The notes under the pieces: model-generated
What the model saw: only the letters and a program-made list of their open reading frames with translations
Told to the model about the DNA's origin: nothing
Databases searched by the model: none
Part shown: positions 374 to 34,961 of the stretch, one piece after another
Position numbering within the stretch: position 1 is the first letter of the stretch
Layout: every line of letters begins with the position of its first letter
Made by a program: the position numbers and the translations under genes
NCBI GenBank assembly: GCA_902790465.1
Contig: CADASF010000018.1
Location: 1 to 35,819 of the forward strand
Direction: 5' to 3'
Origin: an uncultured bacterium
Lineage (GTDB): Bacteria > Vulcanimicrobiota > CADAWZ01
DNA: 35,819 nt

Positions 374-1948
374 CTATAGTACAATTTGCCTTTTTTCATT
401 ATCTGCCACAAAAACGGCTGTAATTACCTTTTTTCCTTCATTTTTATAACTTTCTGCATATCTTTTTAACTGTTCTTGAGCTTCAGCACGCTTTTTATCT
501 ACTTCTTTTAAATTATTTGCAAATTTAAATTCAATAATAATTATCTTATCATCAAATGGAATTACTAAATCAGAACGCCCATCTTTACTGTAAGATTCTT
601 GAAATGAAGTTATACCTGCACCACCACGAAGTAATACTACAAATAAAGAACGATACCAAAATTCATTTTGATTTTTTGAGAAATCATTATAAGGAATTTT
701 TTCTAAAACACTATTAAATATAGTTACTATTTTTTCAAAATTGCAATCTTGTAATGTTTTTATTGATTCCCAAAGACTATTTCCCAATGGTGCATAATTT
801 TCTATTTGATAAATATCTCTCAAATACAAACGACTTATTGAACTAAGGACTTCTAAATTTGGATAATCAAGAGTTAAAATTTCTTTGTCATTCTTTGCTT
901 CCCATTTTTCAATAGTCAAATAACCTGCTTGGTATAGGAAACTTTCAGAAGTCGCTCTTTCAATTTCATGTTCATCAGCAAAATCTGCTTCTACTTCTAT
1001 ATGTCTAAATTTATCAATATTTGTTATTTTATGTTTTCTAAAATAATCATGAATAAATGAAGGAGAACCTGATAAATACCAATAATTTCTAAATTTATGT
1101 TTATCAAAAAAATTTAATACAGAAAATGGATTATATACTCTTGTTATTCCATCAAATGAAAAACCATCATAATACTGTTTTATTTTAGCAAGTAATTCTT
1201 CTCTGTTCATTGATATTTTTTTTTCAGTATTGTCAAGCCACTCATCAAAATTTTCTTCAAGCTCCTGTTGAGTATATCCAACGATATCATCATATTTTTC
1301 GTCCATAGATATATCATTTAAATTGTTTAATCCAGAAAATACACCTGCTTTGCTAAATTTTGAAACACCTGTTAGCATTACAAATTTTAAATATTCACTG
1401 CAACCTTTTAAAACAAGATAAAATGACCGCAAAAATTCTCGCATTTCTTCTGCTTTTTCTAAATTGTTTATATTATCTGTTATTGGTTTGTCATATTCAT
1501 CTATAAGTACAACAACCTGCCCAAATTGTTTATATAATCTTATTATTAGATTAGATAAAGCAATATCTGCATTGTCGTCTAAATCCATTGTCAAATCATT
1601 TATAGTTAAATAATTTTTAAATTGACTAATAATATAATAATTTAATTGTTCAGAACTATCGTAAGATTTCGAAAATCCCATATCCAATTTAATAACTATA
1701 TTTGGGTGTTTAGCTTGTTCTTTTACCCATTCTTCAGCATAAAGACCTTTAAATAATTCAGCTTTACCTTTAAACATTGCCTCTAATGTTGACAAAGTTA
1801 AAGATTTTCCAAAACGACGAGGACGAGAAAGAAAATAATATTCACCATTTTCTATTAAATTTAAAATTTGTTTTGTTTTATCAACATAAAGGTAATTCTT
1901 TAGACGAATATTTTCAAAATTTTGAATACCTATAGGTAATTTCTGCAT
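374..1948 (-). CDS. AAA-ATPase-like / PD-(D/E)XK nuclease-domain protein (DUF1703 family), copy 1
   Basis: This 524-residue protein has the two-domain layout of the AAA-ATPase_like plus PDDEXK_9 family. The N-terminal ATPase-like part has a P-loop variant, RPRRFGKS, at residues 42-49 and a Walker B-like LIDEYD at 148-153. The C-terminal part has a PD-(D/E)XK signature: D460 in GRSD, then E473 and K475 in IEFKFA. The biological role of the family is unproven; mobility or defence is often suspected. It lies 14 nt after hsdR and 25 nt before hsdM, so it is probably cotranscribed with them. A strong GGAG precedes the ATG. A close paralogue lies at 19876-21507, and the similarity reaches into the ribosome binding site. 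The family assignment is firm; the function is not. Confidence 0.88.
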   Translation of the reverse strand: MQKLPIGIQNFENIRLKNYLYVDKTKQILNLIENGEYYFLSRPRRFGKSLTLSTLEAMFKGKAELFKGLYAEEWVKEQAKHPNIVIKLDMGFSKSYDSSEQLNYYIISQFKNYLTINDLTMDLDDNADIALSNLIIRLYKQFGQVVVLIDEYDKPITDNINNLEKAEEMREFLRSFYLVLKGCSEYLKFVMLTGVSKFSKAGVFSGLNNLNDISMDEKYDDIVGYTQQELEENFDEWLDNTEKKISMNREELLAKIKQYYDGFSFDGITRVYNPFSVLNFFDKHKFRNYWYLSGSPSFIHDYFRKHKITNIDKFRHIEVEADFADEHEIERATSESFLYQAGYLTIEKWEAKNDKEILTLDYPNLEVLSSISRLYLRDIYQIENYAPLGNSLWESIKTLQDCNFEKIVTIFNSVLEKIPYNDFSKNQNEFWYRSLFVVLLRGGAGITSFQESYSKDGRSDLVIPFDDKIIIIEFKFANNLKEVDKKRAEAQEQLKRYAESYKNEGKKVITAVFVADNEKRQIVL

Positions 1949-1962
1949 ATATGTTTTCTCCT

Positions 1963-4900
1963 TTACACCCTATATTCTATTTCTTTCTCTGCTACCATTG
2001 GCAATTCATCTTCTTTGAAAAACTTACCAAAAGCATTTACGCCCAAATTTACATACCTATCAAAATAATCTCGTATCTCTCCCTTGACACTGAGTTTTAA
2101 CTCATTTCTTTTCATTGAATTTTTGTTACCAAAACGAGATGCTTTTGGCAATAACTCATTTAGAAGACTTCCTGTTATTGGAATTTCACCATTTTTAAAC
2201 ATATTGAATATATATTTTAAAGTCTGATCCCTCTTCAGTCCGTATTCACTTATCATATCATCTAAATCAATCTCTTGCTTTTCTTCTACAAAATCTCTCC
2301 AACAATTTAGAACATTATCAACTTTATTTGAATTAATACGAGCCAAAAATTCTTCTATCAATTTTTGCTTAGATCTCAATTCAATACTTGATCTCATCAA
2401 TTTTTCTATCTTAGTTACGATTTCCTTATCTTGGCAATTAGATTCGTGATATTTTTCAACCAACATCAAAATATAGTCAATATTTACTTCCACTTGCTTT
2501 ACAAGTTCCATTTCGAAAACAATATCATCTTCTATGTTTTCTTTGTTTGGTTGTTTTCTATATTTATCATACAGATCATTATACATACCTGTATAATCTT
2601 GAAAATCAAGAGGCTTCAATAAATCGTCAACTTCTTGAAATTCATCAAAACTCGAAAGTATATTTCGCAATTTCAAAATTTGTCCAAAATCAGCTATAAA
2701 TTTTTTCTCTGCTTCTTCGCCAACTATTTTTTCACCCAAAGGGAATTGAGTTAAGAAATCAAGGACACGATTATTATAATTTTCCATATAATAATCGAAA
2801 TTCTTTAAAAGAATTTTACCACTTGCATTTTCATCTCCAAAAAGACCAAGTGCTTCTTCTGTCTCTCTATCAAGATCTCTAAAACAGATTATATTTCCAA
2901 ATGTTTTTACAGAGTTTAAAATCCTGTTTGTCCTTGAAAATGCTTGAATAAGTCCGTGCATTTTTAAATTTTTGTCAACCCAAAGAGTATTTAATGTTGT
3001 TGCATCAAAACCTGTCAAAAACATATTCACAACAAGCAAAATATCTATATCTTTGTTTTTCATTCTCTGTGAAAGGTCTTTATAATAATTTGGAAATTTA
3101 TTCGCAGAAGTATCATAAGTTGTTCCAAATAATTTATTGTAATCTGCTATTGCTCTTTCCAAAAAATCTCTTGAACTTTCATCAAGATTTTCTGTATTAT
3201 CTGAATTTTCATCATCTAAAAATCCATCTGGGTCTTCCTCATTTTGTCCATAACTAAAAATCGTGGCTATTTTCAACTGTCTATTGGGTGGTAGCATTGC
3301 AAGCTGTTTTTTAAATTCTGTGTAATACTTTTTTACAGCTTCGATAGATGAAACGGCAAATATTGAATTAAAGCCATCTAATTTTCTTTTTTCCCTCTGT
3401 TCCTTAGTTTTTTTATTTAAAACCATTTCTTCTATATTAATCAATTTATTAAAAGTATAATAACCACCATTTCTCTTTGTCTTTTGATCAAAATGTTCCA
3501 AAATATATGAAACAACATTTGAAATACGATCATCTGATAAAAGTGCCGATTCCGTGTTTATGGCTTCAACTTTTTTATCATTATTTTCATCTTTTTGGAA
3601 CATCGTCCTTATGTAATCAATTCTAAATGGAAGTACATTTTTGTCATTAATTGCATTTATGATTGTATATGTATGTAATTTATCACCAAATGCCTGTTCG
3701 GTTGTCTTCAAATTTGCCTTTTTACTCGCACCTGCATTTTTTCTAAAAATAGGAGTTCCTGTAAATCCAAAAATGTAATATTTTTTAAAATGCTTTGTTA
3801 TATTTGTGTGCATTTCACCAAATTGGCTTCTGTGGCACTCATCAAATATCATCACAATGGGCTTACTAAATACTTCGCTTTTCTGATTCTTTTTATTTGT
3901 TATAAAATTGTTTAATTTCTGAATAGTCGTTACAATTATTTTGACATTGCTATCTTCGAGTTGTCTGCGTAATATCTCTGAACTTGTATTTCCATTTACA
4001 GAACCTTCTTCAAATCTATTAAATTCTCTCATTGTCTGATAATCTAAATCTTTTCTATCTACAACAAAAAGAACTTTATAAATATAATTCATTTTAGACA
4101 CAAGTTGTGCAGTTTTAAAACTTGTCAGAGTTTTACCACTTCCTGTTGTATGCCAAATATACCCCCCTGCTTTTAATGTTCCCCAGTCTTTGGCATTATA
4201 AGCTATCAAAATTCGTCTCAAAATCTTTTCTGTTGCAACAATTTGATAGGGACGCATTACTAAAAGAAGTTTCTCAACTGTAAAAACACAGTAGTGAGCT
4301 AAAATATTTAAAATAGTATGTCTTGAAAAAAAAGTTCTTGTAAAATCGACCAAATCAGGAATAATGTTATTTTTTTCGTCAGCCCAATAAGAAGTAAATT
4401 CAAAGCTATTACTCGTTTTTTGCAAATTTATTTTATCTGTCTTTTTACTTTCTTTTATAGCTGAAATTCTTGTAGTATTTGAATAATATTTAGATTGAGT
4501 ACCATTTGAAATAACGAATATTTGGACATATTGAAAAAGTTGATCATCTGCCCAAAAACTGTCTCTTTGATAGCGTTCTATTTGATTAAAAGCCTCTTTT
4601 ATAGAAACTCCTCTTCTTTTTAATTCAATATGAACTATCGGCAAACCATTTACAAGAATTGTAACATCATATCTATTTTCATAATTGCCACCATCTGTGG
4701 AATATTGATTTATAACTTGTAAATAATTATTATAAATCCAACCTCTATCAAATATTTTTATATTTTTTGTAAATCCATCATTACGCTTAAAAGGATATTG
4801 AAAATCTTCTTGAAATCTCTTTGTTTTATCTTCTATTTTGTCGGTTTTAGGGCTTATATATTCGTTATAAAATCTCTCCCACTCTTCATCTGAAAAATGC

Positions 4901-5139
4901 GACCATTCAGAATCCTCATTTAATCTCTCAATCTGTTTTCTCAAATTTTTCTTCAAAGAATCAAAATTATGTATTTCAGGGGCATATTCATACCCTTGCC
5001 CTTCTAACAATCTTATAAATTCTTTTTCTAAATCAGCTTCAGATTGATAACGCTCAGAATTTCTACTCGGCTCTGGATTGTATTCTGTAACAACAGTTGA
5101 ATCATTTGTGGAAACTAAAATATTATATGTACTATTCAT
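1963..5139 (-). CDS. hsdR: Type I restriction enzyme subunit R (DNA translocase and endonuclease)
   Basis: At 1058 residues it is close to the length of EcoR124I-type HsdR. In order it has an N-terminal PD-(D/E)XK nuclease domain with D158, E172 and K174 (IELKRRG), then a superfamily 2 motor with Walker A HTTGSGKT (330-337), a DECH box (433-436) and FTGTP (459-463). A helical C-terminal part follows that would contact HsdM. The subunit hydrolyses ATP to pull DNA toward the complex bound at the unmethylated site and cuts at a distance. All visible key residues are intact, so the gene looks functional. GGAG lies upstream of the ATG at 5139. The gene follows a terminator at 5155-5195 and is the first gene of the operon hsdR-nuclease-hsdM. 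Confidence 0.95.
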   Translation of the reverse strand: MNSTYNILVSTNDSTVVTEYNPEPSRNSERYQSEADLEKEFIRLLEGQGYEYAPEIHNFDSLKKNLRKQIERLNEDSEWSHFSDEEWERFYNEYISPKTDKIEDKTKRFQEDFQYPFKRNDGFTKNIKIFDRGWIYNNYLQVINQYSTDGGNYENRYDVTILVNGLPIVHIELKRRGVSIKEAFNQIERYQRDSFWADDQLFQYVQIFVISNGTQSKYYSNTTRISAIKESKKTDKINLQKTSNSFEFTSYWADEKNNIIPDLVDFTRTFFSRHTILNILAHYCVFTVEKLLLVMRPYQIVATEKILRRILIAYNAKDWGTLKAGGYIWHTTGSGKTLTSFKTAQLVSKMNYIYKVLFVVDRKDLDYQTMREFNRFEEGSVNGNTSSEILRRQLEDSNVKIIVTTIQKLNNFITNKKNQKSEVFSKPIVMIFDECHRSQFGEMHTNITKHFKKYYIFGFTGTPIFRKNAGASKKANLKTTEQAFGDKLHTYTIINAINDKNVLPFRIDYIRTMFQKDENNDKKVEAINTESALLSDDRISNVVSYILEHFDQKTKRNGGYYTFNKLINIEEMVLNKKTKEQREKRKLDGFNSIFAVSSIEAVKKYYTEFKKQLAMLPPNRQLKIATIFSYGQNEEDPDGFLDDENSDNTENLDESSRDFLERAIADYNKLFGTTYDTSANKFPNYYKDLSQRMKNKDIDILLVVNMFLTGFDATTLNTLWVDKNLKMHGLIQAFSRTNRILNSVKTFGNIICFRDLDRETEEALGLFGDENASGKILLKNFDYYMENYNNRVLDFLTQFPLGEKIVGEEAEKKFIADFGQILKLRNILSSFDEFQEVDDLLKPLDFQDYTGMYNDLYDKYRKQPNKENIEDDIVFEMELVKQVEVNIDYILMLVEKYHESNCQDKEIVTKIEKLMRSSIELRSKQKLIEEFLARINSNKVDNVLNCWRDFVEEKQEIDLDDMISEYGLKRDQTLKYIFNMFKNGEIPITGSLLNELLPKASRFGNKNSMKRNELKLSVKGEIRDYFDRYVNLGVNAFGKFFKEDELPMVAEKEIEYRV

Positions 5140-19739: not shown

Positions 19740-19864
19740 GGAGGCTGTGAAAAAATTAAATAGAATTATATTTTTTTTTCACAACTCCATATAAATAGGA
19801 GCATTTAAGCTCCTTCGAAAAATAAGCTCCTTAATGAAATTAAGGAGAAAAAAATGCGAAGGAG
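19740..19864 (+). promoter_or_regulatory. Structured leader with competing hairpins over the nuclease ribosome binding site
   Basis: This segment fills most of the 294-nt gap between hydE and the second nuclease gene. An imperfect long inverted repeat spans 19740-19788 (GGAG plus TGTGAAAAAA against its mirror). Hairpin A pairs AGGAGC (19797-19802) with GCTCCT (19809-19814). Hairpin B pairs CTCCTTAAT (19827-19835) with ATTAAGGAG (19839-19847). Pairing C joins CTCCTTCG (19810-19817) to CGAAGGAG (19857-19864), which contains the ribosome binding site. A and C exclude each other, while B fits inside C. Confidence 0.5.
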
Positions 19865-19875
19865 AAAAAATATAT

Positions 19876-21507
19876 ATGCAAGATTTACCAATAGGTATTC
19901 AAACATTTGAAGATATTAGAAATGAAGATTTTGTTTATGTTGATAAAACTAAACATTTATTTAATCTTGTTCGAAAAAAAGGAGTTTATTTTCTTTCTCG
20001 TCCTCGTCGTTTTGGAAAATCACTTACAATATCGACATTAGAAGCGATGTTTCAGGGCAAAGCTGAATTATTCAAAGGTCTTTATGCTGAGGAATGGGTA
20101 AAAGAAAAAGCTAAACACCCTAACCCAGTTATAAAACTTGATATGAGTGGTTTAGGAAATTATACAAATATAAGTGAATTAAGTTCTGCCCTTATTGATT
20201 ATCTTGGAGAGATTATAGATGATTATAATTTAAATATTCAATTAAAAGAAAATGCAGGTCGTATATTTGCTAAAATAATAAAAGAATTGTATAAAAAATT
20301 CGGTAAAGTTGTTCTGCTTATTGATGAATATGATAAACCAATTACAGATAATATAAACGATTTAGAAAAAGCAAATGAAATAAGAGATTTTTTTAGAAAA
20401 TTTTATGGTATTCTAAAAAATTCAAGTACAATAGATAATTTACATTTTGTATTTATAACAGGAGTGTCAAAATTTAGCAAAGCTGGCATATTTTCTTGTT
20501 TGAATAATTTAGAAGACATATCAATGACAAGAGAATATGCAGATATAGTTGGCTATACACAACAAGAACTTGAAGAAAATTTTTCTGATTGGCTTGAAAA
20601 AACAGAAAAAAAATTATCTTTTGATAGAAAAGAGTTACTTGCTACAATAAAAAAATATTACGACGGTTTTTCATTTGACGGAATAGTAAGAGTATATAAT
20701 CCATTTTCTGTATTAAATTTCTTTAAACAAGGAAATTTTGGTAATTATTGGTATAATTCTGCACTTTTTTTTCCTCCTTCGAAGAAGGAGCTAAATGTTT
20801 CGTCATTTCTTGCTAAATACTTAAAAAGCCATAAAATCAAAGCACCAAAAGAATATACACAGAAAAAAGTATATGAAGATTTCACAAATTCTCACGAAAT
20901 AGAAAGTACAAGTGTAGAGAGTTTTTTATATCAAGCAGGTTATTTGACAATTTCAGAGAGAAAAGGCAACATACTTATTCTTGATTATCCAAATGAAGAA
21001 GTAAAAAGTTCAATGGACAGGCTTTTTCTTGAAAATTTTTACAATATACAAGATGATGCAGAATTTAGTAATGATATTTGGGAATCTTTGGAAGCAGAAA
21101 ATATTCCACAGGTGGTGAGTATTTTTAACGAGTCATTAAAAGCTATTCCCGAAAACATATTCGCTCCTTCTATCGAAGGAGAAAAAAAACAGGATGATTA
21201 CAAAGATAGAGATGAATCTTGGTATCGTTCATTATTTTTGATGTTACTTAGTGGTGCAAAAATAACATATTTTTCAGAAGTTCATACTTTCAGAGGTCGT
21301 CCAGATGTAGTTGTATCGTTTAGAGACAAATTAGTAGTAGTTATCGAATTTAAATTTGCCCTAACTTCAAAAGATGTAAATAAAAAGCGAAAAGAAGGAG
21401 AAGAACAGATAAAATCGAGAGATTATGCTTCAGCTTATAAGTCGACAAAAAAAATAATAACAGCTGTTTTTGTCGCAGATGATGAAAAACGACAAATTAT
21501 AATCTAA
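19876..21507 (+). CDS. AAA-ATPase-like / PD-(D/E)XK nuclease-domain protein (DUF1703 family), copy 2
   Basis: The start at 19876 (543 residues) is chosen because GGAG lies 11 nt upstream and the protein then aligns from residue 1 with the paralogue at 374-1948; an upstream ATG at 19834 would add 14 unrelated residues read through the leader hairpins. The P-loop RPRRFGKS (42-49), LIDEYD (148-153) and nuclease residues D477, E491 and K493 (IEFKFA) are intact. It has two segments that the paralogue lacks, about 11 residues near ALFFPPSKKELN and about 12 near FAPSIEGEKKQDD. Both coincide with CTCCTTC/GAAGGAG palindromes. It stands alone between hydE and mnmA. Function is unknown. Confidence 0.88.
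   Translation: MQDLPIGIQTFEDIRNEDFVYVDKTKHLFNLVRKKGVYFLSRPRRFGKSLTISTLEAMFQGKAELFKGLYAEEWVKEKAKHPNPVIKLDMSGLGNYTNISELSSALIDYLGEIIDDYNLNIQLKENAGRIFAKIIKELYKKFGKVVLLIDEYDKPITDNINDLEKANEIRDFFRKFYGILKNSSTIDNLHFVFITGVSKFSKAGIFSCLNNLEDISMTREYADIVGYTQQELEENFSDWLEKTEKKLSFDRKELLATIKKYYDGFSFDGIVRVYNPFSVLNFFKQGNFGNYWYNSALFFPPSKKELNVSSFLAKYLKSHKIKAPKEYTQKKVYEDFTNSHEIESTSVESFLYQAGYLTISERKGNILILDYPNEEVKSSMDRLFLENFYNIQDDAEFSNDIWESLEAENIPQVVSIFNESLKAIPENIFAPSIEGEKKQDDYKDRDESWYRSLFLMLLSGAKITYFSEVHTFRGRPDVVVSFRDKLVVVIEFKFALTSKDVNKKRKEGEEQIKSRDYASAYKSTKKIITAVFVADDEKRQIII
20774..20790. repeat. Palindromic element within the nuclease reading frame (first)
   Basis: CTCCTTC (20774-20780) and GAAGGAG (20784-20790) flank a GAA loop. 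It lies in an 11-residue in-frame segment absent from the paralogue. The following GCTAAATG mirrors CATTTAAGC of the leader (19802-19810), which suggests a shared element. Confidence 0.6.
21164..21181. repeat. Palindromic element within the nuclease reading frame (second)
   Basis: CTCCTTC (21164-21170) and GAAGGAG (21175-21181) flank a TATC loop, followed by an A-run like that after the leader copy (19857-19870). It lies in a 12-residue segment absent from the paralogue. Confidence 0.6.
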
Positions 21508-23816: not shown

Positions 23817-26741
23817 CTAATCCCAATAAATATGTGGATAATGTATAAACTCACTCAAATCTATTTTTCTATCACTATTTGAAACATTTACAGATTTTAA
23901 AGAAGTACAACCATCAAAAATAGCATAACCTTTTGTTATATCACTATCTGGAATTGTTACTGATGTTAAAGAGGTACAACCTTCAAAAGCATTATATCCA
24001 ATGCTTTTTACACTATCTGGAATTGTTATAGATGTCAAAGAACTGCAATCTTTAAAAGCTTCCCTTCCTATTTCTATAACACTATTTGGAATTATTACAG
24101 ATTTTAAAGATGTGCAACCTTCAAAAGCATAATCTCTAATGCTTTTTACACTATCTGGAATTGCTACAGATGTTAAAAAATTACAACCCTTAAAAACATA
24201 ACATCTTATTTCTGTAATTTTATATTTATTGCCATTGTAAGTATAAGTTGAAGGAATAACTAAGTCTGTAACTTCTTTTCCATTTTTATCTATTATTTTG
24301 TTTTCTTTAACTTCATATCCCAATTTTTTGAGAACTTCTTTATTTAATTCAACTTCAAATTCTTTTGAATAATTCAAAGATTTTAAAGAATCACATCCTA
24401 AAAAAGCATTTACCTGTATTTCTTTAATATTTTTTGGAATATTTATTTCTTTTAGAGATGTACAATCTTCAAATGCACTTTCTCCAATGTATTTAATATT
24501 TTCTGAAAGTTGTACTCTTTCTAAAGAAATACAATTACGAAATGCATATTTATCTATTACTTTTACACTTTTGGGAATTGTTATAGATGTTAAAGAAGTG
24601 CAACCCCAAAAAGCACTACGTCCAATGCTTGTAACACTATTTGGAATTGTTACAGATGTTAAAGAAGTACAACGATTAAATAAATTATCTCCAATGTACT
24701 TAATATTTTCTGAAAGTTGTACTCTTTCTAAAGAAGTACAATTACTAAAAGTCCATCCTTCTATTTCTGTAACGCTATTTGGAATTGTTATAGATGTTAA
24801 AGAAGAACAACAATTAAATAAACTACTATTTATTTTAGTAATACTATTTGGAATTACCAATGATGTTAAAGAACTGCAACCACTAAATACACTATGTTCC
24901 ATTCTTGTAACACTATTTGGAATTTGTACAGATGTTAAAGAAGTACAATTACCAAAAGCACCTCTTTCTATTTCTACAACACTATTTGGAATTTGTACAG
25001 ATGTTAAAGAACTACAACCACCAAAAACACCAACTTCTATTTTTGTAACACTATTCGGAATAGTAATAGATGTCAAAGAATCACAATTACTAAAAGCACA
25101 ACTTCCTATTTCTATTACACTATCTGGAATATTTAAAGATGTTAAAGAAGTACAACCACTAAAAGCACCTTCTCCAATAGTTGTAATACTATCTGGAATT
25201 GTTATAGAATTTAAAAAAATGCACTCTTTAAACACTTCATTTCCTATTTCTGTAATTTTATATTTATTACCATTGTAAGTATAAGTTGCAGGAATAACTA
25301 AATCTGTAACGTCTTCTCCATTTTTTCGTAAACAAAATGCATTTACATAATTTCCATTTTTTAATAAATAATCATCTTGTTCTATATCATATCCCAACTG
25401 CTTTAAAACTTGTTTATCAATAGCAACTTCTTCAAACTCTTTTGAATAATTTAAAGATTTTAAAGAATCACATCCTCGAAAAGCATTTAACCTTATTTCT
25501 TTAATATTTTTTGGAATATTTATTTCTTTTAAAGAAGTACAACCATCAAAGGCACTTTCTCCTATACACTCAATATTTCCTAAAAATTGTACTTTTTCTA
25601 AAGAACTACAAGAACGAAAAACACTATCTCCTATTTCTGTAAGACTATTTGAAATAATGACATATTTTAAAGAAGTACATCCCTCAAAAGCACTACCTCC
25701 AATGCTTGTAACACTATTTGGAATTATTATAGATTTTAAAGAAGTACATCTCCAAAAAGCATTACCTCCAATACTTGTAACACTATCTGGAATTGTTACA
25801 GAAGTTAAAAATTTATTATCCATAAAAACATCATAATCAATTCCAGTAATTTTATATTTATTGCCATTATAAGTATAAGTTGCAGGAATAACTAAGTCTA
25901 TAACTTCTTTTCCATTTTTTCTTAGAGGTTCTATTCTAATAAATGTTCTTATACAAGTGATTTTATCAAATGTATCATCCTCATCATCCTTTAAATTTAC
26001 ATCATATCCCAAGTGCTTTAAAACTTGTTTATCAATAGTAACTTCAAATTCTTTTGAATAATTTAAAGGTTTTAAAGAATCACATCCTCGAAAAGCATTT
26101 AAATTTATCTTTTTAATATTTTTTGGAATATTTATTTCTTTTAGAGAAGTACAACCTTCAAAAGCCCTTTCTCCTATTTCTGTAATACAATTAGGAAGCT
26201 CTACGGATGTTAAAGATGTACATTCCAAAAAAGCAATTTTTTCTATTTCTGTTAGACCATCTGGAATTGTTACTGATATTAAAGAAGTACAATCCCCAAA
26301 AACACCAATTCCTATTTTTGTAATAGAATTTGAAATTTGTACAGATGTTAAAGATGTACAATCATAAAAAGCAAATTCTCCAAGTTCAGTAACACTATTT
26401 GGAATTGTTATAGAATTTAGAGAACTACAAAATTGAAAAGCCTCACTCCCTATTTTTGTAACACTATCTGGAATTATTACTGTTCTCAAAGAACTACAAA
26501 ATTGAAAAGCCTCACTCCCTATTTTTGTAACACTATCTGGAATTGTTACTGATCTCAAAGACCAACAAGAAGAAAAAACTTTTTCACCTATTTCTGTAAT
26601 TTTATATTCACTGCCATTGTAAGTATAAGTTGAAGGAATAATTAAGTCTGTAACTTCTTTTCCATTGTTATCTATTATTTTGTTATTTTTAATTTCATAT
26701 CCCAGTTGTTCGAGAGTATTATTATTTAATTTAACATCCAT
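23817..26741 (-). CDS. BspA-like leucine-rich repeat protein (LRR_5), four-module
   Basis: The 974-residue protein is built almost wholly of about 23-residue repeats of the Treponema pallidum/BspA type (CTSLTSVTIPNSVTEIGxxAF). Four larger modules start near residues 1, 231, 438 and 796, each with a header of the form VLKxLGYE and then TYTYNGNKYKITEIG. Such proteins form curved solenoids that often bind host or bacterial surface ligands. Unlike many of them, no signal peptide is present at the N-terminus and no sorting motif at the end (HYPHIYWD), so location is uncertain. GGAGG lies 6 nt before the ATG. It is a single-gene unit, downstream of the glgP terminator. The internal DNA repeats make it prone to recombination. 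Confidence 0.9.
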   Translation of the reverse strand: MDVKLNNNTLEQLGYEIKNNKIIDNNGKEVTDLIIPSTYTYNGSEYKITEIGEKVFSSCWSLRSVTIPDSVTKIGSEAFQFCSSLRTVIIPDSVTKIGSEAFQFCSSLNSITIPNSVTELGEFAFYDCTSLTSVQISNSITKIGIGVFGDCTSLISVTIPDGLTEIEKIAFLECTSLTSVELPNCITEIGERAFEGCTSLKEINIPKNIKKINLNAFRGCDSLKPLNYSKEFEVTIDKQVLKHLGYDVNLKDDEDDTFDKITCIRTFIRIEPLRKNGKEVIDLVIPATYTYNGNKYKITGIDYDVFMDNKFLTSVTIPDSVTSIGGNAFWRCTSLKSIIIPNSVTSIGGSAFEGCTSLKYVIISNSLTEIGDSVFRSCSSLEKVQFLGNIECIGESAFDGCTSLKEINIPKNIKEIRLNAFRGCDSLKSLNYSKEFEEVAIDKQVLKQLGYDIEQDDYLLKNGNYVNAFCLRKNGEDVTDLVIPATYTYNGNKYKITEIGNEVFKECIFLNSITIPDSITTIGEGAFSGCTSLTSLNIPDSVIEIGSCAFSNCDSLTSITIPNSVTKIEVGVFGGCSSLTSVQIPNSVVEIERGAFGNCTSLTSVQIPNSVTRMEHSVFSGCSSLTSLVIPNSITKINSSLFNCCSSLTSITIPNSVTEIEGWTFSNCTSLERVQLSENIKYIGDNLFNRCTSLTSVTIPNSVTSIGRSAFWGCTSLTSITIPKSVKVIDKYAFRNCISLERVQLSENIKYIGESAFEDCTSLKEINIPKNIKEIQVNAFLGCDSLKSLNYSKEFEVELNKEVLKKLGYEVKENKIIDKNGKEVTDLVIPSTYTYNGNKYKITEIRCYVFKGCNFLTSVAIPDSVKSIRDYAFEGCTSLKSVIIPNSVIEIGREAFKDCSSLTSITIPDSVKSIGYNAFEGCTSLTSVTIPDSDITKGYAIFDGCTSLKSVNVSNSDRKIDLSEFIHYPHIYWD

Positions 26742-26883: not shown

Positions 26884-29409
26884 CTATTTTACGATTTTAT
26901 TTTTCTTGTGTTCTTTGATAAGATTTGTTATCGAATCAACATGCCAAATTTCTTTTGCATATTCAAGGATTGTTCTATCACTTGAGAATTTGCCCATATT
27001 TGCCGAGTTGATAATTGATTTTTCTACCCATTTTTCTTGATTTCTAAATTCTTTTGAAACCTCTTTTTGGCAGGCTATATAAGAATCATAGTCAAGTGTC
27101 AATAGATATTTATCACCAGCATAGAGGAGAGAGCCAATAATTGGCTTGAATATCTCTCTATCACCTTTTGAGAAATAGCCATTTGCAATCATATCAAGGC
27201 ATTTTTTCAATTTTGGATTTTGCTGTACTTCTTCCATTGGATTGAACCCATGGGCTTCTACTTGATCAACTTCTTTTGCTGTAAGTCCGAAGATAAATAT
27301 ATTTTCATCTCCAACTTCTTCTTTGATTTCAATATTTGCACCATCAAGTGTTCCTATTGTCAAAGCACCATTGAGAGATAATTTCATATTTCCAGTTCCT
27401 GATGCTTCTGTTCCTGCTGTTGAAATCTGTTCTGATAGATCGGCTGCAGGGATAATCAATTCTGCAAGAGATACTGAATAATTTTCCAAGAATACAACTT
27501 TCAATTTGTCGCCAATGTCTGGATCGTTGTTTACGACATCTGCTATTGAGTTGATCAATTTGATGATCAATTTTGCCTGATGATAACCAGCTGCTGATTT
27601 TCCTGAGAAAATAATTGTTCTTGGAACAATGTCAGCTTCTGGATTTGCTTTTATTTCATTGTAAAGAGTGATTATGTGAAGTACATTGAGAAGTTGTCTC
27701 TTGTATTCGTGGATTCTCTTTACTTGAATATCAAACATAGAATTTTCGTTAACTTTGATACCAGTTGTTTTTAAAATATATTTTGCAAGGCGTTTCTTGT
27801 TGTTTTTCTTGATTTCAGCCCATTTTTTGACAAACTCTTTGTCTTTCTTGAATTCCAAAATCTTTTTAAGTTCGTCTAAATTTGTTACCCAATCTTCACC
27901 GATTTTGTCTGTGATAAGTTCTGACAATTCTGGATTACTCATCAATAACCATCTACGAGGAGTTATACCATTTGTCTTATTTATAAATTTGTCAGGTTCG
28001 ATTTCAGCAAAATCTCTGAAAAGGCTTTCTTTTAAAATCTTTGAGTGAAGAGCAGCAACACCATTTACTTTGTGACTACCGACTACAGCGAGGTTTGCCA
28101 TTCTTACTGATTTTTCTCCACCTTCTTCGATCAATGACATCTTGCGAAGTTTTTCGTTATTGCCAGGATAAAGTCTTGAAATTTCATCAAGAAATCTTCT
28201 ATTTATTTCATAAATTATCTGTAAATGACGTGGTAAAAGAGTACCGAGCATTGATACAGGCCATTTTTCCATTGCTTCTGGCATAACAGTATGGTTTGTA
28301 TATGCAAATGTATTCTTTGTAATATCCCATGCTTTATCCCAACCATAGCCATATTTATCTATTAATAGACGCATAAGCTCTGGAATTGCAAGTGCTGGGT
28401 GTGTATCGTTCAACTGAATTGCAGCTTTCTCACTTAAATTATCAAGATTTGGATTTACTGCAAGATGTCTTGCAATGATGTCTTGAATTGTTGCAGATAC
28501 GAAGAAATATTCTTGTGTTAAACGAAGCAATTTGCCTCTATATGAATTGTCATTTGGATACAAAACCTTTGAAATTGTCTCTGCAAGACCTTGTTGTTCA
28601 ACAGCTTTTAAGTAGAAACCCTCGTTGAATGCTTCGAGGTCAAATTCGTGTTTTGCTTTTGCTGTCCACAATCTCAAATTGTTAGCTACATCATTTTTGT
28701 AACCTGGAATGAGCATATCGTGTGGGACTGCGACGACTTCCTGTCTGTCAACCCATTCATAATAAATTCTGCCATCTCCATCCATATATTCATTTACTTT
28801 TCCGTTGATACCGATATCATAGGAAATTGCTGGCTTGCTTATTTCCCAAAGGTTGTCATATTTTAGCCATTCATCAGGAGATTCAACTTGATAACCATTT
28901 TTGATTTTTTGGGTGAAAATACCGTACTCATATCTGAGACCATAACCAAAACAAGGGATTCCAAGTGTTGCCATTGAATCCATAAAACAAGCAGCAAGAC
29001 GACCTAAACCACCATTTCCAAGACCTGCATCAGATTCATTTTCCAAAAGTGTATCCATATCAATACCTAAATCGTCAAATACTTCTTTGACCATTTGATA
29101 AATGCCGAGGTTTATCATAGAATTTCCCATAGCTCTACCCATTAGGTATTCCATTGACATGTAATATACACGCTTGACATTGTTTTTATATGTGATGTAG
29201 TTTACATCATTTCCATTTTCAACAAGGTAATCTCTGACAGATAAGGCAGAAGATGAATAAAAATCTCTTTTGCGAGCTATTCTCTCATGGATTGCTAAAC
29301 TGTATTCGAGATGTTCTGCCATTGTTTTAAAGAAAGTGTTTTTATCTCTTTTTCTTCTTTCTTCTACTTTTTCCCATAGCTTATCTACGGGTTTCTTTGA
29401 TTTCGTCAT
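26884..29409 (-). CDS. glgP: Glycogen/starch/alpha-glucan phosphorylase
   Basis: The 841-residue protein is full length for the GT35 family. It shows the N-terminal segment YYMSMEYLMGRAMGNS, GLGNGGLGRLAACFMDS, and the PLP-binding signature EASGTGNMKLSLNG with the lysine at residue 676. It releases glucose 1-phosphate from alpha-1,4-glucan in the cytosol. GGAGG precedes the ATG. It is the last gene of a three-gene unit after the carboxyltransferase and UDP-glucuronate decarboxylase genes (35-nt gap) and ends at a terminator. The product could enter glycolysis or, through UDP-glucose, sugar-nucleotide synthesis; no glycogen synthase is present here. Confidence 0.95.
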   Translation of the reverse strand: MTKSKKPVDKLWEKVEERRKRDKNTFFKTMAEHLEYSLAIHERIARKRDFYSSSALSVRDYLVENGNDVNYITYKNNVKRVYYMSMEYLMGRAMGNSMINLGIYQMVKEVFDDLGIDMDTLLENESDAGLGNGGLGRLAACFMDSMATLGIPCFGYGLRYEYGIFTQKIKNGYQVESPDEWLKYDNLWEISKPAISYDIGINGKVNEYMDGDGRIYYEWVDRQEVVAVPHDMLIPGYKNDVANNLRLWTAKAKHEFDLEAFNEGFYLKAVEQQGLAETISKVLYPNDNSYRGKLLRLTQEYFFVSATIQDIIARHLAVNPNLDNLSEKAAIQLNDTHPALAIPELMRLLIDKYGYGWDKAWDITKNTFAYTNHTVMPEAMEKWPVSMLGTLLPRHLQIIYEINRRFLDEISRLYPGNNEKLRKMSLIEEGGEKSVRMANLAVVGSHKVNGVAALHSKILKESLFRDFAEIEPDKFINKTNGITPRRWLLMSNPELSELITDKIGEDWVTNLDELKKILEFKKDKEFVKKWAEIKKNNKKRLAKYILKTTGIKVNENSMFDIQVKRIHEYKRQLLNVLHIITLYNEIKANPEADIVPRTIIFSGKSAAGYHQAKLIIKLINSIADVVNNDPDIGDKLKVVFLENYSVSLAELIIPAADLSEQISTAGTEASGTGNMKLSLNGALTIGTLDGANIEIKEEVGDENIFIFGLTAKEVDQVEAHGFNPMEEVQQNPKLKKCLDMIANGYFSKGDREIFKPIIGSLLYAGDKYLLTLDYDSYIACQKEVSKEFRNQEKWVEKSIINSANMGKFSSDRTILEYAKEIWHVDSITNLIKEHKKNKIVK

Positions 29410-29444
29410 ATTTCCTCCGAAGATATTTTCAGTTTACAAACAAC

Positions 29445-30386
29445 TTATTTTTCTCGTTTCAATCTTTCAATAAAATAATCTCTTGTTTTTATTATACCTT
29501 CATCAAGTGGGATTATTGGTTCCCAATCGAGTTTTTCTTTTGCTAAACTAATGTCAGGTTTTCTTTTTCGTGGATCGTCATTTGGTAATGGCTTATATAT
29601 TATTTCAGATTTTGAATTGCAAACTTTTATAACTTTTTCTGCAAGTTCTTTGATTGTGAATTCACCTGGATTTCCTAAATTTACAGGACCTACAAAATCA
29701 TCTTGTTCCATCATTTTTATCATACCATTTACAAGGTCTGACACATATTGGAAACTACGAGTTTGTGAACCATCTCCATAAATAGTTATTGGATCGCCTT
29801 TTATTGCTTGAACAAGGAAATTAGAAATAACCCTGCCGTCATTTAATGCCATATTTGGTCCATAGGTATTGAATATTCTTATAACCCTGATTTCTGCTTC
29901 ATGTTGCCTATCAAATTCCATACATAGGCATTCTGCAAGTCTTTTGCCTTCATCATAACAGGCTCTGATTCCTATAGGATTTACATTCCCCCAATAACTC
30001 TCTTTTTGTGGGTGAACCGAAGGATCGCCATATACTTCTGAAGTAGAGGCTTGTAGAAAACGAGCCTTTGTCTTTTTTGCTAAATTTAACATATTCCAAA
30101 CGCCTAATGTAGATGTTTTTATCGTCTGTATAGGCTGATTTTGATAATGGACAGGTGAAGCAGGACATGCTAAATTATATATCTGTTCCGCATTTATTAT
30201 AATTCCGTCCGTGATATCATGTTTTATGAATTCAAAATTTGAATTCTGCAACAAATCTGCAATATTTTCTTTTGAACCAGTATATAGGTTATCTATACAT
30301 ATAACTTCATAACCCTTTTCAAGTAAAGTTCTGCATAAGTGTGAACCTATAAAACCAGCTCCTCCAGTTACAATAACTCTGGTCAT
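29445..30386 (-). CDS. UDP-glucuronate decarboxylase (UDP-xylose synthase), extended SDR family
   Basis: The 313-residue protein has the NAD-binding GGAGFIG (8-14), the UXS-type segment [13 protein letters not shown] (70-82), the active site T115-S116-E117 in [11 protein letters not shown] and the Y144-x3-K148 pair, followed by [10 protein letters not shown] and [11 protein letters not shown]. These motifs are typical of UDP-xylose synthase rather than UDP-glucose 4-epimerase. The reaction makes UDP-xylose from UDP-glucuronate for surface polysaccharide. It lies between the carboxyltransferase (26 nt) and glgP (35 nt). The link to fatty-acid synthesis in the same unit is unexplained; both could serve cell-envelope building. 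Confidence 0.88.
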
Positions 30387-30412
30387 AATACTTAGATTAG
30401 CTCCAATTTTTT

Positions 30413-32164
30413 TTACTTTATAGCTTTTACTGTTTCATAGAAAAATTTAAGATATTTTGTTACTATCTTTTTTACATTTGTTCTTGTTATTATTTCATCA
30501 ACTCCATTTATTGTATAAACAAAATCTGAAATTGTTACTTCAGGCTCAACTTTGATTCCTGCCAGTTGTGTTACACGAGGACCAGCAAAACAAACAAGAG
30601 CATTTTTCTCACCAATATTTATTGTTCCTTGTGTTGCAAAACTTGCCAAAGCTCCACCTGTGCTTGGGTGTGTCATTATTGAAATAAATGGAAGTCCTGC
30701 TTCTTTTAAAAGTGAAACAGCCATATTGGTTTTTGCCATTTGAACAAGTGATACTGTTCCTTCCTGCATTCTTGCACCACCAGAAGCACAAATTCCGATT
30801 AAAGGCAATTTTCTTGAAATACAGAATTGTACGGCTCTGTAGAATTTTTCACCCATTGCTGAACCCATTGAACCGCCAAAGAAATTGAAGTTGGATATTG
30901 CCAAAACAGCTCTGTAATTGTTGATTTTTGCAATTCCAGTTGTGAGTGATTCACCACAACCGCTTTTTGTCTCTGCTGCTTCCAATGCTTCGAGATATGA
31001 ATCTGTAATATCTTCTTTATTTAAAAGCTCTTTTGCAGTTATTTTGTTGTTAAATTCTGTGAATGTGTGGCTATCACATAAAATATCTGTCCATTCATCA
31101 GACATCAATGTCTCGCCTTTTCCACAAATTGGACAGGATTTGTAGTTCTTTTGATATTCATCAAGTGGCACATAGCCGCCACAGCCTCTTCCGTCTTTTT
31201 TCTCACAGAGGACATGTGGTTTACTTAGATCCATGTTTTTACTCTCAAAATATGCACGCTCCAGTGAATTTGACAATTCGTCTGCATTTATGATTTTAGC
31301 TCTTGATTTTCTGCTGACTTGTGAATTTTCGTCTTTGTGGAAGAAATCAACAACTTGTGCGAAAAATCCCTGTTTTTTATAGACACCATAACTCAAAACT
31401 CTTCTTCTTCTTCTCTCAAGAAGTCTGTCAACATCAGTTTTGATAACATCGGAAACTGCTTTAGATATAGCGGATTTTATTGATTTTATGTAACCTTCAT
31501 AATCTGAAATGTCTTCAGGTTCTTTTACTATTTCATCACAAATGCCATAGTATAGCATATCTTTACTTGTTGGTCTTATGAGGTTCAAAGATTCTTCTAT
31601 TTTTGTATTGTCTCTGAAGATGATAGAACCACAGCTTTCAGGAGCTATTACATAGTACATTGCATCTTCCATTATAAGTCTTCTATCTGTAACTTGGAGA
31701 GCCAATGCACCACCAGAACCGCCTTCACCAAGGACGAGTGAAACTGTAGGGGTCTTTACTGTACAAAATTTGCTTATACAGTCGGATATTGACCACGATT
31801 GAAGGTTTTTTGCAGAATCAGAGCTCGGATCGGCACCTGGTGTATCAACAAATGTAACTACTGGCAAATTGTTTGTTTCTGCATATTCGAGAATTTCGAT
31901 AACATGTCTATAACCAATGGGTTTTACCATTCCAAAATTGACTTTACTTGCATAAGCCAAATCATTTCCCTTTGGTTTTTCCTGCCCAATAAATATTACT
32001 TTTTTCTTGTTGATGTAGCCTGTACCACTTATTATTGCATAATCTTTTGCTTTGAAGTAGGCGATGTCTGTGAAAATATTTTTGATGACATCAGAACTTC
32101 TGATTCTATTTGGATTTCTTGTTTTTTCTTTGAAAATTTCAGTTACTGTCTTTTTTGATTTCAT
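30413..32164 (-). CDS. Fused acetyl-CoA carboxylase carboxyltransferase, alpha then beta
   Basis: One 583-residue protein joins an AccA-like half to an AccD-like half. Alpha features: [16 protein letters not shown] (105-120) and [12 protein letters not shown] (145-156). Beta features: a zinc-ribbon with C320, C328, C344 and C347, [14 protein letters not shown], then SGGARMQEG (461-469). The third and fourth cysteines and the 15-residue spacer match E. coli AccD, but the first pair is spaced by seven residues instead of two. The enzyme moves the carboxyl group from biotin to acetyl-CoA to give malonyl-CoA. The biotin carboxylase and BCCP genes are not here. A propionyl-CoA or decarboxylase role is less likely given the AccA/AccD-type motifs. 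The ribosome site is weak (GGA). Confidence 0.9.
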
Positions 32165-32479: not shown

Positions 32480-34216
32480 ATGAATACTACAAAAAAAGTA
32501 AAAGCCTCTTTGGAGGACAGATATAAATTTTATTATGATATTGGAAGGTTATTTAATTCCAGTTTTAATATCAATTTTCTTCTCGACACAGTTCTTTCAA
32601 AAATTGTAAATGAGATGAATGTTGAGGGAGGGGCTTTTTGGCTTTATGACAATGAAAAAGATAAAACAATTTGTAGTAATTGCATAAATCCTTCTGGAAT
32701 CGTTTTAAGTGGTTTTGAAATAAAAAATGATTTGGGCATAAAAGGTTATTGTATCAGAAATCGAAAACAAATTATGCTTGATGACATCAATAAATTTCAG
32801 GATTATGAAGATGATTTTGAGAGAAAAATGAAACTAAATGTCAGAAGCATTGCCTGTGTTCCAATGATTCACAAAAAAACTTTAATTGGAATGATTGAGT
32901 TGATAAATGGCAATGATGATCCTCCATTTTCAAATGATGATTTAGAACTCCTCGAATTTATTTCAAATACAACTGCTATAGCTCTTAACAAGGCACATCT
33001 TTTTGATGATACATCGGAAAGAGATAGATTAAAAAAAGAACTTGAATTTGCTTCTTTTTTGCAGTCATCTATTCTTCCATTAAAAAAAGTTGAAAATCCT
33101 TTTTTTGAACTCCATGCGACACTTGAACAGACAAAGGAAATGGGTGGAGATTTTTATGATTGGCGTGAACTTGAAGAAAATAAATATTTATTTTTGATTG
33201 CAGATGTCTCTGGAAAAGGTAGCCCTGCGGCAATTTTTATGGCAATTGCAAGAAGTATAATGTGGACAGTCAGTAACTTTTTTCATGATCCAAAGAAAAT
33301 TTTGGAAAAAACAAATGAATTTTTACGAAATTCCAATAGAATAGATATGTTTGTTACAACTCTTTTGATAGTTGTTGATACAAAACAAAAAAAATTAAAA
33401 TATGTTTCTGCAGGTCATAATTCTGGATTTTTGATAAGAAAAAATGGTGATGTTGTCGCATTAAAAACAAAGGGTATGCCACTTGGTGTTGTAGAAAAGT
33501 CAACTTATGAGCAGAAAGAAATATCTATAGAAAAAGATGATCTGCTATTTTTATATACAGATGGTTTGACTGAAACAACGAATAAAAATGGCAAAGAATA
33601 TGGAGAGGCAAAATTAGAGAGAAAAGCAGTAAATCTTCGTCTTAAACCTCTTGCAGAAATATCGGAAAATGTTTTTTCTTCATTAAAAAAATATTCAAAT
33701 GATCAAGTCTCGGATGACAGATGTCTGATGTTACTTCGTTTTTTAGAACCTGGTCCTAAAAAATCACCTATGGATTCATTTGCATTGAATCTTTCCGATA
33801 AAATGGACGATATAACAAAAACTCTTGAATATGTTGAGAGAGTTGCAATAGGTGGCGGATTTAGTGCTGATGATATAAATGATATTTTAATTGCAGTTGA
33901 AGAAATTTGTGTAAATGTGATAATGTATGGATTCCCTCAGTCAAAAGCTAACTACACTGTCGATGCTTGGACAGATGACGAAAAAATAACTGTCGTAATA
34001 AAAGACAAGGGAATTCCATTTGATCCTACAAGGGTTTTAGAATCTCCAGAAGAATTTAATACAAAAAGAGAAGAAGATGGAGGATATGGTCTTCTTCTTA
34101 TCAGAGAACTTATGGATGAAATAAATTATAGATATGACGACGAAAAAGGAAATGTATCTACTTTAATAAAAAGAAAGACTGTTAGAAATGAGGATAACAT
34201 GAGGAAAGATGACTAA
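32480..34216 (+). CDS. GAF sensor - SpoIIE/PP2C phosphatase - RsbW-like kinase fusion
   Basis: This 578-residue protein has three domains. A GAF domain (about 25-172) senses a small ligand or redox state. After a helical linker, a SpoIIE-type PP2C domain (about 205-422) keeps the metal-binding acids D224 (GGDFYD), D242 (IADVSGKG), D361 (YTDGLTE) and D412/D413 (SDDR). The C-terminal HATPase domain (about 435-566) has E475 and N479 (VEEICVNV), D509 (KDKG) and the GGYGL box, as in RsbW/SpoIIAB. It would both remove and add phosphate on a STAS partner, setting release of a sigma factor or other target. The STAS gene lies 0.8 kb downstream. The next gene overlaps by 8 nt. Confidence 0.92.
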   Translation: MNTTKKVKASLEDRYKFYYDIGRLFNSSFNINFLLDTVLSKIVNEMNVEGGAFWLYDNEKDKTICSNCINPSGIVLSGFEIKNDLGIKGYCIRNRKQIMLDDINKFQDYEDDFERKMKLNVRSIACVPMIHKKTLIGMIELINGNDDPPFSNDDLELLEFISNTTAIALNKAHLFDDTSERDRLKKELEFASFLQSSILPLKKVENPFFELHATLEQTKEMGGDFYDWRELEENKYLFLIADVSGKGSPAAIFMAIARSIMWTVSNFFHDPKKILEKTNEFLRNSNRIDMFVTTLLIVVDTKQKKLKYVSAGHNSGFLIRKNGDVVALKTKGMPLGVVEKSTYEQKEISIEKDDLLFLYTDGLTETTNKNGKEYGEAKLERKAVNLRLKPLAEISENVFSSLKKYSNDQVSDDRCLMLLRFLEPGPKKSPMDSFALNLSDKMDDITKTLEYVERVAIGGGFSADDINDILIAVEEICVNVIMYGFPQSKANYTVDAWTDDEKITVVIKDKGIPFDPTRVLESPEEFNTKREEDGGYGLLLIRELMDEINYRYDDEKGNVSTLIKRKTVRNEDNMRKDD

Positions 34217-34961
34217 TATTGATACAGAATCTCTTGTTATGAGCAGAGAACACATGCGATTTTTTTTCAGTATTCTTGACAAGATTGGAATTGCAATATA
34301 TCTTGTCAATCCTGAAAATTATGAGATTATTGCAGCAAATGCCATTGCTGAAAAGTTTTTAGGAAATGATCCCATAGGGAAAAAGTGTTATCAACTCCTT
34401 TTAAAACAGAGAAATTCACCATGTGAAGAGTGTATAAATGAGCAGATTTGCAAAAACAAAAAAGACATAAAAACAATACCATTGGAATTTAAATCAAATG
34501 ACAGATGGTATAAATCTTTGAGTAAAGTTGTAGATTATGGTGAACAATGGGGTGGGCTTTTAAAATTGGAAATCATAATGGATATAACAGAATCAAAGCT
34601 CATGGAAAAAGAAATTAACAGTCTCACTGTTTTTAAAGAAAAAGTTGAGAATCTCCCACATGTTCCAGTTTTTACTTTTGGAAAAAGAGGGAGAATAACG
34701 ATGATAAATGATGCAGCAAGTCAACTATTGGGTTATGATAAAAATTCTACAGATATTCTCCATATATGGCATATTGTTGAGGAAGAGACAAGAGAGAAAA
34801 TATATAATTTGATAGAAGAATTTAGTAATTCCGATAGACAGACTATTGAATGCAAAGTTATTGGAAGAAAAAATACTTTTGATGCGTGGCTTGATATTCT
34901 TTTACACAGAGATGTAAAAGGTACATTCCTTGAAGCTACAGTTTTTATAATAAAAAAGTAA
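34209..34961 (+). CDS. Tandem PAS-domain sensor protein without output domain
   Basis: The 250-residue protein has a first PAS domain (about 15-130) and a second (about 145-248), with no transmembrane segment, kinase, cyclase or DNA-binding part. The first PAS contains a cysteine group, CYQLLLKQRNSPCEECI and then IC, a pattern found in many PAS proteins and possibly redox- or metal-linked. ITESKLMEKEI ends the first domain as the usual PAS-to-helix junction. The start overlaps the phosphatase-kinase stop by 8 nt, with GAGGAAAG as ribosome site, so the two are coupled. It probably feeds a signal to the phosphatase-kinase or the STAS protein by direct contact (inference). Confidence 0.8.
   Translation: MTNIDTESLVMSREHMRFFFSILDKIGIAIYLVNPENYEIIAANAIAEKFLGNDPIGKKCYQLLLKQRNSPCEECINEQICKNKKDIKTIPLEFKSNDRWYKSLSKVVDYGEQWGGLLKLEIIMDITESKLMEKEINSLTVFKEKVENLPHVPVFTFGKRGRITMINDAASQLLGYDKNSTDILHIWHIVEEETREKIYNLIEEFSNSDRQTIECKVIGRKNTFDAWLDILLHRDVKGTFLEATVFIIKK

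Follow-up and report, generated by a model that had tools for sequence, protein, structure and literature searches.

Bacterial acetyl-CoA carboxyltransferases of the AccA-AccD type, such as those of E. coli, S. aureus, and Chloroflexus (PDB 2f9y, 2f9i, and 9m70), are formed from two chains and have the usual C-x2-C first zinc knuckle. A single-chain arrangement is found in AccS, the acetyl-CoA carboxylase of Shewanella oneidensis (PDB 9kkm), a 1517-residue multidomain protein given as AccADCB in its sequence table, in which the alpha half lies ahead of the beta half and carboxylase and carrier parts are also present. Passages of a paper on AccS state that its domain order is unlike that of the eukaryotic enzymes and that AccS-type genes occur in a small group of bacteria (PMC11602165). 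In passages of the survey by Lombard and Moreira 2011 (PMC3199775), Thermotogales, Spirochaetes, and most Actinobacteria are named as being without both acetyl-CoA carboxylase (ACC) carboxyltransferase subunits and also without an ACC-type biotin carboxylase (BC); because the same groups are named for both, the absence of the carboxyltransferase (CT) subunits and that of BC went together in the groups that these passages cover. Among the open-licence papers listed in searches on transcarboxylation to malonyl-CoA, we recognized no case of a bacterial AccA/AccD enzyme without BC.

Here we describe an AccA-AccD fusion encoded in the window, the whole 35,819-nucleotide stretch of DNA that was analyzed. 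Like AccS (22% identity), the encoded protein is a single chain with its alpha half first, and both of its halves match the two-chain enzymes (beta half, 153.8 bits to 2f9i_B). In contrast to those systems, neither AccC nor a clear AccB was found in the four genomes analyzed from the window's family. The alpha-beta order is already known from AccS, and it is the apparently BC-free gene context of the fusion that is of more interest here.

The fusion gene and its protein

The initial annotation of this DNA had placed an AccA domain and then an AccD domain in one protein and had described the first cysteine pair of its zinc ribbon as spread to C-x7-C, and both of these descriptions were borne out. 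The gene is an intact open reading frame (ORF) with an ATG start and no internal stops that encodes 583 amino acids (Table 1). Pfam searches identified ACCA (214.7 bits) and Carboxyl_trans domains, the latter in two stretches of which the best covers residues 392–558, and both scored above their curated cut-offs. These two domains, which are the AccA and AccD domains of a bacterial acetyl-CoA carboxyltransferase, were the only ones identified by Pfam in the chain, so that the BC and BCCP parts of an AccS-like protein are absent from it. The NCBIfam models AccA_sub and accD matched residues 14–257 and 328–573, respectively, and the scores of all nine listed families were below the curated cut-offs (213.5 versus 317.45 for accD and 210.1 versus 300 for AccA_sub), which suggests that the fusion is a divergent member that lies outside the accA and accD equivalogs. 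The beta-like half does not come first, as it does in the actinobacterial acyl-CoA carboxylase beta/PCC type.

An AlphaFold2 model of the fusion chain, built from a 44-row alignment, had a mean pLDDT of 86.4 and a pTM of 0.88, and the mean pLDDT in the ribbon region was 84 to 93 across the four 10-residue blocks of residues 311–350. The alpha half of the model fit the Chloroflexus CT alpha chain 9m70_B with a Z score of 37.3 (rmsd 1.4, 256 residues). Among the VIA-align matches listed, 9kkm was the only chain with more than 400 aligned model residues (chain residues 59–923 on model residues 3–583, Z 30.9, 488 residues, rmsd 5.3). When the four proteins from the window's order were aligned, the glycine motifs GEGGSGG and SGGARMQEG were unbroken in the window protein. 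At the residue that corresponds to window G151, L006, the copy from genome G004, differs from the other three, so that its alpha motif reads GEGGSSG and theirs GEGGSGG; the function of the L006 copy may have drifted, as two further AccA/AccD systems are present in G004.

Table 1. Features of the fusion gene and other reading frames in the window
Feature	Position	Strand	Basis
Whole alpha-beta carboxyltransferase fusion, 583 aa	30413..32164	-	ORF, Pfam, NCBIfam, alignment, structure model
AccA-like (alpha) half, residues 15-264	31373..32122	-	Pfam ACCA 15-260; fit to 9m70_B
Inter-half linker, residues 265-310	31235..31372	-	Model; partly low confidence (pLDDT <50 at 264-284)
Altered putative zinc ribbon, C320-x7-C328-x15-C344-x2-C347	31124..31207	-	Invariant cysteines; model
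AccD-like (beta) half, residues ~311-575	30440..31234	-	NCBIfam accD 328-573; 2f9i_B match 334-579
Fusion, epimerase-type, and glycogen phosphorylase-type gene block	26884..32164	-	
GAF-SpoIIE phosphatase-HATPase protein, then overlapping double-PAS protein; divergent from the fusion gene	32480..34961	+	
Predicted AAA-ATPase domain plus PD-(D/E)XK nuclease domain	374..1948	-	
ORF similar to that at 374..1948, apparently its paralogue	19834..21507	+	Translation
Type I restriction enzyme R subunit, adjoining the AAA-ATPase/nuclease ORF	1963..5139	-	HSDR_N, SWI2_SNF2, EcoR124_C
BspA-type leucine-rich repeat protein, 974 aa	23817..26741	-	
Long antisense ORF, probably a shadow of the 974-aa BspA-type gene	24487..25278		

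A search of the relatives set (78 genomes) found a full-length fusion in one frame in four genomes, namely the window's own (G000), G001 (98%), G002 (79%), and G004 (63%). G000 to G003 are the genomes analyzed from the window's family and G004 belongs to the same order, so the fusion is present in three of four family genomes and in four of the five genomes analyzed from the class; it was not seen in the fifth, G003, which is 69% complete. Between the G000 and G001 genes, pN (0.012) is far below pS (0.371, a value that is saturated in more distant pairs), so that the fusion gene is under purifying selection; together with the recurrence of full-length copies in G001, G002, and G004, this speaks against a chance product. 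Other genomes of the phylum, at the loci read, contained separate accD and accA genes or, in the case of G006 and of a further G004 gene, a beta-alpha fusion. G004 itself thus contains one of each kind: an alpha-beta fusion (L006), a beta-alpha fusion (L034), and separate genes (L038).

The fusion gene is followed by epimerase-type and glycogen phosphorylase-type genes in G000, G001, and G002; this block, which in the latter two lies at L075 5546–10829 and L074 884–6157, has no evident functional reason. No biotin carrier gene adjoins the fusion in the window or at the G001, G002, or G004 loci. In G000, a PF03255 profile search matched the fusion gene and one stretch of a 517-aa 12S-like gene, leaving the fusion as the only AccA-type gene found in this genome.

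Fusion order and the zinc ribbon among relatives

Twelve loci were recovered when named genome contigs were scanned, and the alpha-beta fusions among them were two of the window type together with L078 and L079. The genomes with these last two fusions and with L098 are referred to here as the Cloacimonadota group, although only the L079 contig carries that name and the L078 contig the name Armatimonadetes; their fusion proteins are 42–43% identical to the window protein and match it from query residue 12 or 13 to 572. Of 147 genomes around that of L078, three contained a window-type fusion (L078's own, L079's, and G090), and the same search detected two more distant alpha-beta genes in G227. 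Six beta-alpha fusions from other genomes also came up.

In trees made for each half, as had been suggested with the initial annotation, the seven distinct window-type fusions formed one group that stood apart from the beta-alpha fusions and the separate genes, with support of 100/99 in the alpha tree (41 rows, with long branches flagged by the program and an odd composition for three window-type rows) and 99/99 in the beta tree (47 rows, likewise with long branches and with a bootstrap that had not settled). Duplicate cores and cores below 170 aa were left out of both trees, and L078 and L079 were entered with a truncated N terminus, the first ATG having been taken. The simplest reading of these sequence trees is that the window-type fusion had a single origin, to be followed by transfer or loss.

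Several candidates for further alpha-beta fusions were rejected. The two Chloroflexi loci L085 and L087 matched nearly the full query, yet L085 consists of two separate genes, beta then alpha, and only a separate beta ORF was recognized at L087. The three best matches in a plasmid collection (Fusobacterium vincentii, Acetoanaerobium noterae, and [Eubacterium] eligens) all consist of separate genes in which beta precedes alpha and the ribbon has C-x2-C.

The four cysteines of the beta ribbon are all present in the window protein and invariant in the four aligned members of its order, and in a phmmer alignment C328 is matched to the E. coli AccD cysteine that lies within 'SCG'. When the ribbon was counted in 47 distinct beta-type proteins (beta match E <= 1e-18, with the longer of overlapping ORFs kept), 40 had C-x2-C-x15-C-x2-C, five had x7, and in two from Chloroflexi the pattern as searched was not seen; compared with this prevailing form, the first knuckle of the window protein has five extra residues. 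Four of the five x7 proteins came from the window's order and the fifth was L119 of G227. The three Cloacimonadota-group fusions lie inside the window-type clade and have the ordinary C-x2-C, so within this clade it is only for the window's order that the x7 ribbon serves as a marker.

L119, an alpha-beta protein of 748 aa, is encoded next to a 472-aa biotin carboxylase. Among 99 genomes around and including G227, 85 had a strong match to L119 (E < 1e-100), six had a weak match only, and eight had none; a strong match is not always a single chain, being split over two frames in G229 and G317 and partial in G244 and G270. With all six frames read, C-x7-C-x15-C-x2-C was found with alpha before beta at 30 of 30 loci of this type, one of which, L156, is a partial match (query residues 220–748). 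When plasmids were searched for the 748-aa protein, no record covered 80% of it. These carboxyltransferases presumably resemble Desulfovibrio DVU2226.

The 748-aa family thus shares both order and ribbon spacing with the window protein, but its proteins are 165 residues longer and lie far off in the beta tree, and a BC gene adjoins in G227. In a beta tree that included this family (10 of its 30 loci, a selection of the separate AccD genes, and a bootstrap that had not settled), the x7 proteins did not group. Forcing them together lowered the log-likelihood by 10.1 and was not rejected at the 5% level (p-AU 0.0635, for a group picked after earlier trees were known). We consider it very unlikely that the window proteins inherited both order and ribbon from the 748-aa family instead of gaining them independently: the identical spacing, the shared order, and the p-AU value fit such an inheritance, but the window proteins cluster with the C-x2-C fusions of the Cloacimonadota group (100/99), the branch that leads to the 748-aa family is very long, and identity to L119 is ~27% compared with ~30–43% to separate AccA and AccD proteins. 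From these comparisons the x7 insertion is likelier to have arisen twice, the alternative being that it is old.

The initial annotation had also proposed that order and ribbon could mark a lineage, and that their recurrence in many unrelated phyla would make them an ordinary variant. As a marker, the order holds for the window-type clade, and the ribbon holds, within that clade, for the window's order alone. The recurrence was found in part: neither feature is unique, since order and spacing recur in the 748-aa family and the alpha-first order is also that of AccS. With alpha-beta chains found in more than one line, the order of the fusion is by itself of less weight.

Biotin carboxylase and biotin carriers in the window's family

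The profile for the biotin carboxylase C domain (PF02785) had no match in the family genomes G000, G001, G002, and G003 (completeness 97.8, 89, 98, and 69%, respectively) and was matched in 69 of the 78 relatives-set genomes; AccC was correspondingly found in zero of the four family genomes and in G004. When only the 68 genomes with a CT match at E < 1e-20 were considered, four had no BC match (G000, G001, G002, and G036). G036 is 72% complete and its relatives of the same genus have BC, which indicates that incompleteness can mimic an absence of this gene. If independence is assumed, the chance of missing BC in all four family genomes by incompleteness alone is ~1.5e-5. In family f13 of the same phylum, G020, G022, G024, and G042 (71–90% complete) had no BC match and a weak CT match only (E 1e-8 to 1e-9), and both BC and CT were matched in their relatives G030, G034, and G040.

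These data bear on whether the fusion is part of an ordinary acetyl-CoA carboxylase whose BC and BCCP exist but were missed, either in assembly gaps or as proteins too divergent for the models. In its favor, all four family genomes are drafts, G000 being in 121 contigs, the absence of BC from G036 is likely to be false, and AccB- and AccC-type genes lie side by side in G004, a member of the same order. We nevertheless regard this explanation as unlikely. In addition to the PF02785 result, TIGR00514 gave only weak matches in the four genomes (at most 52.2 bits versus a cut-off of 626.5), and the two in G000 proved to be a D-Ala-D-Ala ligase (Ddl) and a generic ATP-grasp protein. Even the very divergent BC beside L119 was scored by PF02785 (53 bits versus a cut-off of 32.4, in a direct scan and not a genome search), and no clear stand-alone BCCP was found in G000 to G003.

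The three Biotin_lipoyl matches of G000 are all accounted for, by a 647-aa 5S-biotinyl protein, a 603-aa OadA-like protein, and an RND adaptor, which leaves no stand-alone BCCP among them. In G001 to G003 no Biotin_lipoyl match falls within a short complete frame; the matches there lie in frames of 417–511 aa and in one G003 frame that is truncated at the end of its contig and could belong to any kind of protein. The 647-aa protein of G000 adjoins the 517-aa 12S protein, and the 603-aa protein adjoins the beta subunit of a sodium-pump decarboxylase (552 bits to TIGR01109). G001 and G002 contain neighboring genes that are like the latter pair in size and sequence ends. By gene content, 5S-fused biotin carriers are therefore combined with no detected BC, as in a BC-free system of the transcarboxylase type. 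At L062 6944–9951 (G000:C2), the OadA-like carrier is divergent (316.6 bits to TIGR01108 versus 656.2 for the C1 protein) and the Na+-pump beta subunit beside it is a strong one.

PYC_OADA was matched in nine of nine genomes tested, including all seven in which a fusion of the window clade was seen. Matches were also obtained in the BC-bearing genome G227 and in 7 of the 14 controls, so that this co-occurrence is weak evidence. FabD, biotin ligase, and PYC_OADA were all matched in one control, Thermotoga maritima, which is not among the PF02785-positive genomes and is thus a further bacterium in which fatty acid synthesis genes were seen without a BC match.

Outside the family, the fusion is found together with BC. 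G004 has the fusion, BC, BCCP, separate AccD and AccA, and a beta-alpha fusion, and one BC each was found in G078 and G079 of the Cloacimonadota group. Because these three genomes have both, gene fusion and BC loss were separate events. The fusion thus came about with BC still in place, and its role in G004 may be a different one. The x7 ribbon is not a sequel of BC loss either, as this ribbon and BC are both present in G004.

Possible sources of the carboxyl group

FabD and biotin ligase were each found in all five genomes of the class, and on this gene content the use of malonyl-CoA in the window's family is very likely. Since no biotin carboxylase was found in the family, the carboxyl group is probably not derived from ATP and bicarbonate. 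On the basis of gene content, we consider the balance to be somewhat in favor of the fusion being a single-chain acetyl-CoA carboxyltransferase that would be supplied with the carboxyl group by a carrier charged from oxaloacetate or methylmalonyl-CoA. In such a pathway, a 5S-type domain acting on oxaloacetate, or the 12S protein acting on methylmalonyl-CoA, would work in reverse to charge the biotin on the carrier of 647 aa; alternatively, the OadA-like protein would charge its own biotin. The fusion, in which bacterial-type alpha and beta halves are joined alpha first by a linker of ~45 residues and the first knuckle of the putative zinc site is enlarged, would then hand the carboxyl group from the carrier to acetyl-CoA, providing malonyl-CoA for the FabD-dependent fatty acid pathway.

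The fusion might instead act in the other direction or on another acyl-CoA, for example as a transferase that decarboxylates malonyl-CoA or another acyl-CoA and so charges the OadA-like carrier of the Na+ pump; malonyl-CoA would then be made in some other way, such as from malonate plus CoA. The pairing of the OadA-like carrier with the pump beta subunit in G000, the similar neighbors in G001 and G002, and the retention of the fusion in G004 beside two other AccA/AccD systems are all consistent with such a role. It is nonetheless quite improbable in our estimate, because no AccA-type gene besides the fusion was found in G000, where FabD is present, and because the nearest solved relatives of the fusion are acetyl-CoA carboxyltransferases.

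Transfer of a carboxyl group to acetyl-CoA from a carrier loaded by a metabolite would resemble the working of two known systems, the 12S/5S/1.3S transcarboxylase and the ACC/PC fusion protein of Giardia (PMC8700996), in that biotin carries the carboxyl group between substrates. In the window's family the extra transferase would be an AccA-AccD fusion. To our knowledge, the Giardia protein, for which Jordan et al. 2003 is also cited, is without BC.

For the family as a whole, we place at about even the broader proposal that malonyl-CoA for type II fatty acid synthesis is made by an AccA-AccD carboxyltransferase without any biotin carboxylase. All carboxybiotin would then arise from the decarboxylation of oxaloacetate or methylmalonyl-CoA, and the committed step would be an ATP-free transcarboxylation with a carrier common to the propionate or Na+-pump pathway. 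If this BC-free reading is true, the first step of fatty acid synthesis as given in textbooks, in which ATP and bicarbonate are used on biotin, would be replaced in these bacteria by transfer from a metabolite, and lipid synthesis would be tied directly to the oxaloacetate/propionate branch of metabolism.
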